From positions 1 through 37,966 of the forward strand of contig JALUXH010000211.1 of the NCBI GenBank assembly GCA_027019065.1: DNA of 37,966 nt, given 5' to 3'. The stretch is from Anaerolineales bacterium (GTDB lineage: Bacteria > Chloroflexota > Anaerolineae > Anaerolineales > DRMV01). Position 1 is the first letter of the stretch. Each line of letters starts with the position of its first letter. Of the stretch, positions 2-11,837 are shown piece after piece. A model generated the notes under the pieces. It ran no database searches. It was not told where the DNA came from and was given only the letters and a program-made list of their open reading frames with translations. Position numbers and translations under genes: made by a program.

Positions 2-787
2 TCAGGGGGCGGTGGCGACGACATAAAGGATGGCACACATCAACGTGAGCAACACCAACAGCGCCAGAACGCCCAGAATAGCCCACTGGCGGGGGGTAAA
101 GTTGAAATACCGCTCGGCCTGCTTGACGGCTTTGGGCGGTGCAGCGGCTTTGCGGCTGCGGCGCTTTTTGGAGGAGGCGGCGGCCTGCGGCTTGGGGCGG
201 AAAGCATCGGTCAGGTTCAGCAAATCGGTCGGGGTCAGTGCCGCATCGGCCTGGGTCAGTTTGAGCGCGTGGCGCTTCAGGCCGTCCAGCAGCAACGGCG
301 TAACCTCCGGGCGCACGGCGTCGATATCGGCGCCGGGGTTGGCAAACACCATCAACGGCGTGACTTTAACCGAGAGCCCGGCCTGCTTTTCCAAAAAAGC
401 CGCCACGGCACCGCTCAAATCTTTGGCAACCTGCACCTCATTAGGCTTGCCCGGGCGGTAGCGGCGGTTGCTGCCCTGCATCACTTCCCACTGGCCTTCC
501 CGAATGCGGAAAAACCCCGCCTTCGGCCAGACATACAGCAAAAACACCCCTGCCGGGCCAAGCACCACCGGCGGCAGAGGCGTTTCTTCGCCCGGCAAAC
601 GGAACCCCCGCACCACCGTAAAACGATTATCCAGCACCCCGGCCAGCACCTGCAACACCCGGTCTTCAGCCTGGTGGCGCTGATACCACTTCCAGCCGTG
701 TTTCACCATGGCTTGCAGACGAGTGGCCCAATCCGTTGCTTTTTGCCCCCGTTTGGGCTTGAGCGGCGAAAGGTCTATGAGTTTCAT
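2..787 (-). CDS. NERD-like domain protein with C-terminal membrane anchor
   Basis: A 261-residue protein. The start at 787 is chosen because GAGGAG lies 5 nt upstream; the frame stays open far beyond it only because it runs through repeat DNA. Residues about 45-160 resemble the nuclease-related (NERD) domain: a strand with a 'GPAGVFLLYV' pattern, an aromatic 'GQWEV' segment, and a 'PNEVQVAKDL' helix where NERD proteins usually have a P-x-x-Q helix. The acidic and lysine residues expected in the core 'GVFVIEVK' motif are replaced here (LLYVWPK), so catalysis is doubtful. A basic Ala/Lys/Arg linker (about 200-225) leads to one hydrophobic helix in the last 30 residues, ending near the C-terminus, which suggests a tail-anchored protein with its domain in the cytoplasm. 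Its function is not known. The family assignment is from pattern only. Confidence 0.7.
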   Translation of the reverse strand: MKLIDLSPLKPKRGQKATDWATRLQAMVKHGWKWYQRHQAEDRVLQVLAGVLDNRFTVVRGFRLPGEETPLPPVVLGPAGVFLLYVWPKAGFFRIREGQWEVMQGSNRRYRPGKPNEVQVAKDLSGAVAAFLEKQAGLSVKVTPLMVFANPGADIDAVRPEVTPLLLDGLKRHALKLTQADAALTPTDLLNLTDAFRPKPQAAASSKKRRSRKAAAPPKAVKQAERYFNFTPRQWAILGVLALLVLLTLMCAILYVVATAP

Positions 788-827
788 GGCATCTCCTCGC
801 GAGAAAGAGCCTTCAGGCGCTGCCCGT

Positions 828-836
828 ATTATAGCA
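828..836 (-). promoter_or_regulatory. Extended -10 promoter for the NERD-like gene
   Basis: Read on the minus strand the site is TGCTATAAT, a perfect -10 hexamer with the TGN extension, about 41 bp upstream of the start at 787. No convincing -35 box is seen at 17 bp, which is normal for extended -10 promoters. The rest of 837-927 holds no gene; it contains a GC-rich imperfect palindrome near 893-912. Confidence 0.6.
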
Positions 837-927
837 GAAGAGGCGCCCCGCTGCACTTTTGGGTACAATAGGGGGGCGCTAAAATGCTTCAGGGCGGGGC
901 GGCGTCCCGCCTTACCATTGCCTGCTC

Positions 928-1302
928 GTAACTGTTCAGCCCCGGCCAGGGGAAACCGCAGATGACGCAGATTCCCCAGAAAATCATCCACAGATTCGCA
1001 CCGATTGCAACCCCAGAAAGCACCGGTGATTACCCAGATCTCTCCCCACCCCCGCCGGGGCCTCCCCCTCCCCTCCCTTACAAAGGGAGGGGAGGGGGAA
1101 AAGCCGCCGCAGGCGGCTTGGGGGAGGGGTGAGATCACCCTTCTTCCGAGTTTTGGGTAATCACCAGAGAAAGCACAGCAGCGTCGCAGAAAACACAGAA
1201 GTTCACTTTGCGTCTTTGCCTTTGCGCTTGGCGTTACGCGGCGCAACTTTCGGGTCTCCTCTGCGCCTTGTCGTTTTCATCGCAGGCGGGCTGAGCAGTT
1301 AC
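928..1302. mobile_element. MITE-like element, family D (375 bp), carrying a nested second element
   Basis: The ends are inverted repeats: GTAACTGTTCAGCCC at 928-942 and GGGCTGAGCAGTTAC at 1288-1302, 15 bp with one mismatch. An 8-bp direct repeat GCCTGCTC sits directly outside at 920-927 and 1303-1310, as expected of a target-site duplication. There is no coding capacity. Removing the nested element at 1023-1167 and its own 8-bp duplication leaves an ancestral element of about 222 bp. Its interior contains low-complexity text of the 'cacagaag...gcgtctttgc' kind. It fills the gap between the divergent NERD-like gene and dtd and pushes any upstream promoter away from dtd. Confidence 0.75.
1023..1167 (+). 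mobile_element. MITE-like element, family A, copy 1 (145 bp)
   Basis: The terminal inverted repeats are CCGGTGATTACCCA (1023-1036) and TGGGTAATCACCAG (1154-1167), identical over 12 bp of the inner part with one mismatch near the tip. It is flanked by the direct repeat AGAAAGCA (1015-1022 and 1168-1175; the match extends to a ninth base). Inside are a long hairpin with C/T-rich and G/A-rich arms around the loop TTACAAA, and a second palindrome GCCGCCGCAGGCGGC. A copy in opposite orientation lies at 7034-7177. No ORF of its own is credible. It is inserted in the older element 928-1302. Confidence 0.85.
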
Positions 1303-1333
1303 GCCTGCTCCTTTTCCCAACCAGGAGGCCGAC

Positions 1334-1786
1334 ATGCGCGTTTTGCTTCAGCGAGTCAAGTGGGGACGCGTGCTCATCGGCGGGCACCCCATCGCCGAAA
1401 TCGGGGCGGGGGTCGTGTTGCTGGTGGGCATCGCCCACACCGATACCGAAGAAGAAGCCCGCTACCTCGCCCACAAAATCGCCCACCTGCGCATCTTTGA
1501 AGACGAGAACAGCCAATTCAACCTTTCGCTGCTGGAAACCGGCGGTGAAGCCCTCGTGGTTTCCCAATTCACGCTTTACGCCGATACCCGCAAAGGCCGC
1601 CGCCCGGCTTTTGTTGCCGCCGCGCGGCCGGAGCACGCCCGCCCACTTGTAGAACGCTTCGCCGCATTGCTGCAGGCCGAAGGGGTGCCGGTCCAGAGCG
1701 GCAAATTCGGCGCCCACATGCACGTGGAACTCTGCAACCACGGCCCTGTAACCCTGTGGCTGGAACGGGAGCACGCCGGTGCCTGA
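1334..1786 (+). CDS. dtd: D-aminoacyl-tRNA deacylase (Dtd)
   Basis: A 150-residue cytoplasmic enzyme that hydrolyses the ester bond of D-aminoacyl-tRNAs, and of glycine mischarged on tRNA-Ala, as a quality-control step of translation. Length and sequence match the bacterial DTD family throughout. The two signature motifs are present: SQFTLYAD (residues 77-84) and NHGPVT (135-140), whose Gly-Pro forms the cross-subunit cis-proline site that rejects L-amino acids. The start is set by AGGAGG 5 nt upstream. The gene lies directly after a nested pair of mobile elements, so its promoter is not obvious. The Nnr gene follows 89 bp downstream on the same strand, and the two are probably co-transcribed. 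Confidence 0.95.
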   Translation: MRVLLQRVKWGRVLIGGHPIAEIGAGVVLLVGIAHTDTEEEARYLAHKIAHLRIFEDENSQFNLSLLETGGEALVVSQFTLYADTRKGRRPAFVAAARPEHARPLVERFAALLQAEGVPVQSGKFGAHMHVELCNHGPVTLWLEREHAGA

Positions 1787-5345: not shown

Positions 5346-5905
5346 GGCAGCGACTGCGCCGCAAGTTTGCGGTGGACTTCCCGCGCCAGCAAGGTATCAT
5401 CCAGGGCGCGATGGCTGTTAGGGATGGGAATGCGAAGTTCCCGCCCCACCTGCTCTAACCGCCAGCGGCGCAGGCTGCCGTCGGGGCGGCGTTGCCCTTT
5501 GAATTCGGAATAGAGCATCAGCAGATCGCCGTATTCCGCCCCCGGCACATCAAACGCCATCTCATAGCGGGCAGCCGTTTGCCGCATCACCCGAACATCG
5601 TAGTCGGCGTTGTAAATCAGCACCAGGCGCCCGGCCATGGCCGCCTGAATTTGCGGCCAGGCTTCCGGCCAGGATGGCGCGTTTTGCAGCATCGCGGTGG
5701 TCAGGCCGTGCACGCGGGAAGCATCGGCAGGCACCTCGCCCTGGGGGCGAATCAGCGTGTTGACCAATGGGCGTCCGTCGGCATCCACAATCGCGATTTC
5801 AACAACCTCGGCGTCCCCGCCCAGCCCTGTGGTTTCGGTATCCAGATAGACCGGCTGCCGCTGCAACCATGCTTTGGCCTGCCGGATGGCATCCCAACGG
5901 CTCAT
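5336..5905 (-). CDS. DEDDh-type 3'-5' exonuclease (DnaQ/PolC epsilon-like)
   Basis: A 189-residue exonuclease of the RNase T/DnaQ superfamily. All motifs are visible: ExoI DTETTG (Asp22, Glu24), VHGLT, ExoII YNADYD (Asp103), and ExoIII H165-R-A-L-D-D170. These residues bind the two metal ions that hydrolyse 3'-terminal nucleotides. The protein is a stand-alone domain, not fused to a polymerase, so it could act in proofreading, repair or RNA trimming. The start at 5905 has GGAGGA 7 nt upstream and overlaps the stop of the aldo/keto reductase gene by 4 bp. Confidence 0.9.
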   Translation of the reverse strand: MSRWDAIRQAKAWLQRQPVYLDTETTGLGGDAEVVEIAIVDADGRPLVNTLIRPQGEVPADASRVHGLTTAMLQNAPSWPEAWPQIQAAMAGRLVLIYNADYDVRVMRQTAARYEMAFDVPGAEYGDLLMLYSEFKGQRRPDGSLRRWRLEQVGRELRIPIPNSHRALDDTLLAREVHRKLAAQSLPWG

Positions 5906-6870
5906 GCGTCTTCCTCCGGAGCATTCTGCAAAATAGCCTCAATGCGTTCCAGCACCTCGTCGTTCAATTTGCCCAGGGCATCCGCAGCGCCCAGGTTTTC
6001 TTCCAATTGCGCCATACGGGTAGCGCCGGTAATCACGCTGGAAACCTCTTTTCGCCGCAGCAGCCAGGCAATGGCAAGTTGTGCGGTGGTCATATCCAGT
6101 TCAGAAGCCAGCGCCGAGAGTTGCCGCACCTTCGCCACGACTTCGGGCGTAATGCGGTCGCGCAGCCAGCCCATGTTTTCCAGCGAGGCCCGGCTGCCTT
6201 CGGGAATGCCATCGTTATATTTGCCGGTCAAAATGCCGGAATAAAGCGGGCTCCAGGTGGTCAGGCCGATGCCAAACCGCCGGGTCACAGGGGCCAGTTC
6301 CAGTTCCACCCGGCGGCGGTGCAGCATGTTGTACTGCGGCTGTTCCACCACCGGCGGGATGAGGTGATGCTGCCGGGCGATGCCCACGGCTTCCACAATT
6401 TGCGCCGCCGTCCATTCCGAAGTGCCCCAGTAGAGGATCTTTCCCTGCCGGATGAACACATTCATCGTATAGACCACTTCCTCCACCGGCGTATCGGGGT
6501 CAAAGCGATGGCAATAGTAAATATCCAGGTAATCCGTCTGCAAACGGCGCAGGGAAGCATGGAGCGACTCGGACATATGTTTGCGGGAAAGGCCGCGTCC
6601 GTTGGGGCCGGGCATGGTTTGCCAGAAAACTTTGCTGGAAAGCACCAGCGCTTCACGCGGCAGCCCCTGAATGGCCTTCCCCAGGATGATTTCAGCCTGG
6701 CCGCGAGCATAAACATCGGCATTATCAAAGAAGTTGATGCCGTGGTCGTAAGCCGCATGCACAAGGTCGGTGGCTTCCTGCTGAGAAAGCTGGTTGCCGA
6801 AAGTCACCCAGGCGCCATAAGAAATTTCGCTTACTTTAATGCCTGCTTGTCCCAAGCGTCGGTAGTGCAT
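5902..6870 (-). CDS. Aldo/keto reductase (Kv-beta/YghZ-like)
   Basis: A 322-residue NADPH-dependent oxidoreductase of the aldo/keto reductase superfamily with a TIM-barrel fold. The catalytic tetrad is intact: Asp49, Tyr54 (in FFDNADVY), Lys80 (SSKVF) and His121 (YYCHRFDP). The N-terminal YRRLGQAGIKVSEISYGAW and the internal YLDIYYCHRFDP resemble AKR6/AKR14 members such as Kv-beta subunits and YghZ. The physiological carbonyl substrate cannot be read from sequence. The start at 6870 has AGGAGGT upstream. It is first in the three-gene minus operon, with an extended -10 promoter at 6957-6965. Confidence 0.92.
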   Translation of the reverse strand: MHYRRLGQAGIKVSEISYGAWVTFGNQLSQQEATDLVHAAYDHGINFFDNADVYARGQAEIILGKAIQGLPREALVLSSKVFWQTMPGPNGRGLSRKHMSESLHASLRRLQTDYLDIYYCHRFDPDTPVEEVVYTMNVFIRQGKILYWGTSEWTAAQIVEAVGIARQHHLIPPVVEQPQYNMLHRRRVELELAPVTRRFGIGLTTWSPLYSGILTGKYNDGIPEGSRASLENMGWLRDRITPEVVAKVRQLSALASELDMTTAQLAIAWLLRRKEVSSVITGATRMAQLEENLGAADALGKLNDEVLERIEAILQNAPEEDA

Positions 6871-6956
6871 GGTTTACCTCCTGAAAAACGAAAGGGTTGC
6901 GATGGCCGTTCAGCACCCAAATCTGCTGTTCAATGGTCACAGGGTGTGTGGAGAAA

Positions 6957-6965
6957 ATTATACCA
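6957..6965 (-). promoter_or_regulatory. Extended -10 promoter of the aldo/keto reductase operon
   Basis: On the minus strand the site reads TGGTATAAT, a perfect extended -10 box, 86 bp before the start codon at 6870. No good -35 is seen at the expected distance. The stretch 6966-7026 contains no gene. Confidence 0.65.
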
Positions 6966-7033
6966 GCCCCGTCAAGGGCAGGACACATCAATCGGACCGC
7001 CCGCCCGCCAACATTGGCGTGCCCCCATTTTTG

Positions 7034-7177
7034 CTGGTGATTACCCAAAACTCGGAAGAAGGGTGATCTCACCCCTCCCCCAAGCCGCCTGCGGCGGCTT
7101 TCCCCCTCCCCTCCCTTACAAAGGGAGGGGAGGGGGAGGCCCCGGCGGGGGTGGGGAGAGATCTGGGTAATCACCAG
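7034..7177 (-). mobile_element. MITE-like element, family A, copy 2 (144 bp)
   Basis: Perfect 14-bp terminal inverted repeats, CTGGTGATTACCCA (7034-7047) and TGGGTAATCACCAG (7164-7177). It is flanked by the direct repeat ATTTTTG at 7027-7033 and 7178-7184. It is the reverse complement of the element at 1023-1167 except for one T missing from a short T run, one base at a tip, and the hairpin loop, which reads TTACAAA on the plus strand in both copies despite the opposite orientation of the arms. The right end abuts the promoter of the 7416 operon. Confidence 0.87.
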
Positions 7178-10355: not shown

Positions 10356-11837
10356 TTAGCGGCCATAAAGCACACTGATGTCATCGCGATAGAGCACACG
10401 CCACCCGCGGGCCACCAGCATCCGCCCCAAGAGAGTATCCGGCGGCATCAACACCAGGCGCACATCCCAGTAATCCAGCACGGCATCCCAACCGGGCTTG
10501 ACGCCCACCACCCGCAGCCACTGGCCGATGATCTCATCGCCATACAAATCGGCCCGGCCATCGATAAAAACCGGATAGTCGGGCGCAGCCCACATCAAAT
10601 AGGCCCCCCAGCCATAATCGTTGAACAGGCGCCCCTGAGGGTGTGCGGTTTCCAGAAAGGCCACCGCATCCACAGGGAAGTTCTGCGCCGCAGCGCCGGC
10701 ATTCACGCCGGGCAGCGTCATGACGCCCAATTTGCCCACGGCCAGCAAAGCGGCCAACGCCACCAACCCCAGGTTAATTTTCGGGTGAGGCCGGGCAGGG
10801 GGGCGTGCGGGGCGGGAAGGCAGCCACTGCAACCCGTCGCGCAGCAGGTATTCGGCGTGGCGGGCCAGCGCGGGAACCGCCACCACGGCAAACAAAGCCA
10901 CATTCCGCACGGCTGTCAGCGCGAGCGCCAGCATTCCCCCCACAAGAAAGACGTTCTCCAGAGTCATCCGGCGGGCAGAAGCCCCCACCACACCCACCAA
11001 AGCCACCAGCAACACCAGCATGGGAAGCAGCGACGCTTTATGAAAATCGGGCACCTGCCATTCGGAGATCAGGCGCAGCGCGTGAATTCCCAGCGTTTTG
11101 AAAGGATAGCCATACATCTCCAGGCCGTAAGGATTCAACAAAACGGCTACCGCTAACGCCGCGCCCACCGCGGTCAGCGAGAGCAGCCAGCGCCACGCCG
11201 AAGCCGCCGCCTGCGGGCCTTCCCGCCGACGCTGCACCGCCCAACGGAGCACCGCCGCGGCCCAGTAAGCCCCCCACCACACCAGCCCCATGATAAACGC
11301 CCCATGGCCGTTTGCCCAGAGCACCATCAAAACGGGCAGCCCAAGCAGCAGGCGGGCCCGGCCGCGTTTTGCCCGCGCCAACAGCCACAAAAAAAGTGCC
11401 GAGAGCAAAAACGAAAGCATTTGCGGACGGGCGTTCCAATAAACGGCCGAAGCCGCCGCCCCCCATGCCACCGTTCCGGCCTTGAGGAGGGGATGCACTT
11501 CCACTTCCAATTCCCGCAAGGTCAGCCACACCAGCCCCCAAACCGTCGTTACGGTCAACGCCACGGCCACATTCAATGCTCCTGTGCCGCCCAAACGATA
11601 CAGGCCATACATCAGCACTTCCACAGGCCAGCCCGGGTAGTGCCAGGCTTCGCCCAAACGGGTGTATGAAAAATGGTCCACGTTGGGCAGCGCCCTGTGC
11701 AGCCAGATCCACTGCCCGGCGCGCAAATGCCACCATGTATCAGGAGAAACGGTATAACGGGCTGCCATGGCCAAAATCAGCAGCAGCGTCAGCACTGCCA
11801 GCAACCGTTCCAGCACCCCGCGATTTTCGTCTTGCAT
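10356..11837 (-). CDS. Multi-spanning membrane protein, GT-C-like
   Basis: A 493-residue protein with about ten hydrophobic segments. Early in the chain comes DTWWHLRAGQWI followed by LPNVDHFSYT and 'WHYPGWPVEVLMYG', a pattern of GT-C-fold membrane glycosyltransferase-like proteins in which an Asp in the first periplasmic loop binds the lipid-linked sugar. The soluble tail holds NDYGWGAYL and FIDGRADLYGD. No substrate can be named. I prefer the ATG at 11837, with GAGGAGG upstream; an ATG at 11855 overlaps the preceding stop (ATGA) but lacks a ribosome site. It is adjacent to a second GT-C-like gene, suggesting joint work on cell-surface glycans. Confidence 0.7.
   Translation of the reverse strand: MQDENRGVLERLLAVLTLLLILAMAARYTVSPDTWWHLRAGQWIWLHRALPNVDHFSYTRLGEAWHYPGWPVEVLMYGLYRLGGTGALNVAVALTVTTVWGLVWLTLRELEVEVHPLLKAGTVAWGAAASAVYWNARPQMLSFLLSALFLWLLARAKRGRARLLLGLPVLMVLWANGHGAFIMGLVWWGAYWAAAVLRWAVQRRREGPQAAASAWRWLLSLTAVGAALAVAVLLNPYGLEMYGYPFKTLGIHALRLISEWQVPDFHKASLLPMLVLLVALVGVVGASARRMTLENVFLVGGMLALALTAVRNVALFAVVAVPALARHAEYLLRDGLQWLPSRPARPPARPHPKINLGLVALAALLAVGKLGVMTLPGVNAGAAAQNFPVDAVAFLETAHPQGRLFNDYGWGAYLMWAAPDYPVFIDGRADLYGDEIIGQWLRVVGVKPGWDAVLDYWDVRLVLMPPDTLLGRMLVARGWRVLYRDDISVLYGR

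Follow-up and report, generated by a model that had tools for sequence, protein, structure and literature searches.

Upstream of dtd, the gene for D-Tyr-tRNA(Tyr) deacylase, two short mobile elements lie one inside the other. We read them as nested non-autonomous MITEs: an element with IS66-type ends, D, was moved in trans to the dtd locus, a second element, A, arrived later, and the dtd leader was probably lengthened as a result; we put the probability of this reading at about 0.88. In the mechanism that we propose, an IS66-family transposase would have acted in trans on D, about 222 bp long and with IS66-type ends of the ISBst12 group, either cutting or copying it. D would thereby have landed downstream of the dtd promoter and upstream of the dtd ribosome site, giving an 8-bp duplication, and A (145 bp) would then have entered D, giving an 8-bp duplication of its own. 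The window, that is, the whole 37,966-bp stretch that we analysed, belongs to contig C211 of a genome of 2.48 Mb in 277 contigs.

Two MITE families, one element inside the other

Element D, of the GTAACTG family, spans positions 928–1302, 375 bp with A inside. Its 15-bp inverted ends (GTAACTGTTCAGCCC at 928–942 on the plus strand and GTAACTGCTCAGCCC at 1288–1302 on the minus strand) match at 14 of 15 positions, and an exact 8-bp duplication, GCCTGCTC, abuts the unit on both sides (920–927 and 1303–1310). Element A, a 145-bp MITE with branched hairpins, occupies 1023–1167. Its ends have the form C(C/T)GGTGATTACCCA (CCGGTGATTACCCA / CTGGTGATTACCCA in the window), and it is flanked by two copies of AGAAAGCA, the left of which (1015–1022) is D sequence and the right of which lies at 1168–1175; the base adjoining this duplication matches too. 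Folded as RNA, A yields –107.9 kcal/mol (z –10.4). The initial annotation had described a unit with 15-bp inverted ends and an 8-bp duplication, containing a family A copy with a duplication of its own, and this description holds to the base; removing A and one copy of its duplication from D leaves 222 bp, the length it had predicted for an uninterrupted copy. When the whole 37,966-bp window was scanned for 15-bp inverted repeats (at least 13 of 15 matching, span 100–600 bp), an exact 8-bp duplication beside an inverted repeat was seen in only two places, D and A, and none of 40 first-order Markov-randomised windows contained such a structure.

Copies elsewhere in the genome were counted by pattern searches and similarity searches, with at most 100 places listed per search. 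The unit 928–1302 has 90 matches in its own genome, the D ends (GTAACTGNTCAG) occur at 178 sites in 2.48 Mb as compared to one in a reversed control, and the D core (CCCCAGAAAGCAC) is found in 48 places as compared to none in the control. Among the loci that we fetched, some 40 distinct end-bounded elements are flanked by 8-bp duplications whose two copies differ at one position at most; 30 elements combine near-exact D ends with an exact 8-bp duplication, a number that falls to zero with four scrambled ends. Closest among the uninterrupted D copies is L010, of 219 bp, which has a duplication of its own (CGCTCAAC) and is 89% identical; other uninterrupted copies measure 234–238 bp. The D family, which the initial annotation would have considered weakly founded had the window held its only copy, is therefore well represented. 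D displays the hallmarks of a MITE: inverted ends flanked by a target duplication, many copies at separate loci with a different duplication at each, and no transposase gene, the copies (154–450 bp, or as much as 842 bp with multiple nesting) being too short to code for one. Related elements with D-like ends and duplications are present in two sister genomes (G002 and G003). Scanning a genome collection with a 22-mer of the D core returned matches only in unrelated phyla, within other intergenic repeats that have neither D ends nor duplications, and a plasmid search gave no match. The word AACCGCAGATGACGCAGATTCC turns up repeatedly in unrelated phyla, where it lies in intergenic repeats without D ends, frequently as part of a palindrome (L199 and L201 in Geothrix; L198 and L200 in Verrucomicrobia; L197, L202 and L203).

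A has inverted ends, a duplication and several copies, and is likewise a MITE, of a different and less abundant family than D: its ends occur at 22 sites in the genome, and eight copies have both ends, six of them with clear duplications of 8–9 bp. No longer element that might be a parent IS was seen among the A end sites listed. The window itself holds a second A copy (7034–7177), which has the hairpin core and preserves the 8-bp duplication only in part; the 3' end of an open frame (5767–7170) falls inside it. Another A copy (L166; contig C73, about 10407–10841) has about 290 bp of other DNA between its two parts.

Order of insertion and the dtd locus

The target that A duplicated belongs to D and occurs once in uninterrupted D copies (both the 219-bp one and those of 234–238 bp). 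A, which interrupts D, thus entered it, and D was inserted before A, the order that had been proposed. Identity to the nearest copy, 89% overall for D as compared to 97–99% for A, is as expected if A is the younger insertion. The D+A composite is single-copy in the assembly, with only the window locus matching across both junctions among the matches listed, which favours A having entered when D was already at the dtd locus. The composite might instead have arisen elsewhere and reached dtd as one 375-bp unit: its intact outer ends could mobilise the whole, and elsewhere nested elements have kept their outer duplications intact at lengths of up to 842 bp (L023). We nevertheless regard this as unlikely, given that no second composite copy was found in the assembly and that the A sites listed do not adjoin other D cores.

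Insertion at the dtd locus agrees with the appearance of this locus in relatives. Gene dtd (1334–1786, plus strand; PF02580, E = 3.8e-53) has orthologues in 23 of 25 relatives searched, and in seven relatives it is paired with the same divergent gene (2–787, minus strand; 261 aa, no Pfam match). The gap between the two genes is about 120–250 bp in those seven relatives and 546 bp here; subtracting 383 bp leaves 163 bp. The unit with both copies of its duplication takes up 391 of the 546 bp (72%), in agreement with the earlier statement that the pair fills most of the gap. In the sister genome G004 both flanks can be aligned (80.5% over 2–870 and 79.5% over 1321–2597), with only 47 bp and no element between the aligned parts. 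The unit is thus absent from the sister species at the dtd locus. Owing to divergence over a few dozen bases at the insertion point, the exact D target is unreadable in G004.

Intergenic alignment suggests a –10-like hexamer for each of the two genes. TATAAT (826–831, minus strand), the putative one of the divergent gene, is found in the window and in most relatives aligned. For dtd we propose TACAAT within GGGTACAATA (864–869, plus strand), upstream of the insertion; GTACAAT precedes dtd in all five same-genus genomes compared (that of the window, G001, G003, G004 and G005). The proposed ribosome-binding site region of dtd, AGGAGGCC (1323–1330, plus strand), is present in G004 too. Since both –10-like motifs lie upstream of 928, the insertion would separate the likely dtd start from the ribosome site, so that the leader has probably been lengthened by 383 nt. 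The gap would have gained 383 bp, and a dtd mRNA leader of about 80 nt would probably have become one of about 460 nt, with a very stable hairpin inside; folded as RNA, the leader has a z of –6.6. The initial annotation held that the distance from promoter to dtd must have changed. An insertion between the conserved GTACAAT and the ribosome site, together with sister genomes that lack the unit, supports the change itself, while ‘must’ is too strong for what is read from sequence, and we consider that the distance very probably changed.

Rather than passively extending the leader, the unit could provide a new promoter or regulatory signal and so place dtd under gained control, as other bacterial MITEs are known to carry outward promoters (PMC10969869). 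We judge this improbable: a consensus scan of 700–1400 revealed no full sigma-70 pair and no terminator, an Rfam search of the unit returned no family, and a conserved –10-like site was already present upstream of the insertion. With the unit negative for promoters, terminators and Rfam families, any effect on dtd expression is to be taken as putative. Finally, that the D and A repeats are chance inverted repeats of GC-rich intergenic DNA has nothing in its favour and is refuted by the 0 of 40 randomised windows and the zero count for scrambled ends, by the many copies with distinct duplications and by the empty locus in the sister species. The nested-MITE reading makes the dtd locus a clean case of two-step, ordered insertion before a housekeeping gene, in a genome whose short non-coding elements are nested together.

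A third family within D copies

A third MITE family, with ends GTAATTACCTAC (111 end sites as compared to none in the control) and 8-bp duplications, occurs within D copies and within related 154-bp elements. In six D copies it sits at the same 8-bp target, GAAGCGTC, or a one-base variant of it: L148 (C193:8878), L030 (C233:4446), L020 (C195:34867), L238 (C25:20414), L249 (C71:261) and L255 (C124:2547). The insertions at GAAGCGTC comprise two internal sequences and both orientations. The A insertion of the window uses a different D site, 10 bp from the third-family target. Tentatively, D elements may serve as preferred landing pads for the family with GTAATTACCTAC ends, with at least six entries at GAAGCGTC; if so, a site within one MITE family would be the target of a second. 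The count comes from the part of the copies that we inspected, many of the loci having been chosen for containing D, and we therefore claim no genome-wide target preference. Nesting goes deeper at L023 (contig C239, 1306–2147), where an 842-bp outer element with the duplication TGTTGTGC holds three elements, namely a complete D copy and two third-family elements, each with inverted ends.

Mobilisation of D and comparison with known systems

Ends that start with GTAA, together with an 8-bp duplication, are indicative of the IS66 family. D has both features, which are those of the ISBst12 group, and complete single-gene IS66 elements with D-like ends are found in the same order or class: L089 (ends GTAACCGTTCAG, duplication CTCAATTT) and L130 (ends GTAACTGTTCAG/GTAACTGTTTAG, duplication GTCCGCTC), both with PF03050 confirmed, as well as L137 (ends GTAACTGCTCAC, duplication TAACTGCC) and L144 (ends GTAACTGCTCAGGC, duplication not exact). 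D has only its ends in common with these elements. PF03050, the IS66 DDE transposase domain, has no match in the genome of the window and is not encoded by D, and we therefore file D as bearing IS66-type ends and not as an IS66 element. Since no IS66 transposase was found in the genome, the mobiliser of D, as a MITE, is either missing or was external, and we infer that an IS66-type transposase mobilised it.

A search of 30 relatives found no IS66 transposase among genomes of the family, except for one doubtful match in G001. We rejected this match as a partner of D, as no GTAACTG end pair surrounds it and its neighbour is chemoreceptor-like. The G001 locus (L087, contig C41) is a three-gene IS66 element with a chemoreceptor-like gene beside it, which sets it apart from the other genomes of the genus, and this contig is possibly a contaminant in that assembly. 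Two stretches of 0.8–1.1 kb between GTAACTG ends were also dismissed as autonomous D copies: the one on C14 contains no transposase, and the one on C81 resolves into several short elements.

ISDge4, an IS66 element of the ISBst12 group that has been seen to transpose, closely parallels D in its ends (GTGACTACTCAGCA/GTAACTGCTCAGCA) and has an 8-bp repeat (PMC12898284). Its end GTAACTGCTCAGCA resembles GTAACTGCTCAGCC of D, and both make an 8-bp target duplication, but D is only about 222 bp long and lacks a transposase gene, so the likeness is confined to the ends. The D family offers a test case for whether IS66-type ends can be moved in a genome that lacks a resident IS66 transposase. In being short, non-coding and intergenic, with inverted ends, target duplications and high copy number, D and A resemble the bacterial MITEs reviewed previously, for which regulatory effects are known (PMC10969869). 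Our literature search for MITEs in Chloroflexi or Anaerolineae found nothing relevant and no published description of this family. Elements inserted into one another have been described for the BOX, RUP and SPRITE repeats of Streptococcus pneumoniae (PMC3049150), which differ from D and A in sequence and host and do not have IS66-type ends. Bacterial MITEs, their mutual nesting and their regulatory effects are thus already known, and the D/A pair adds a further case to them.
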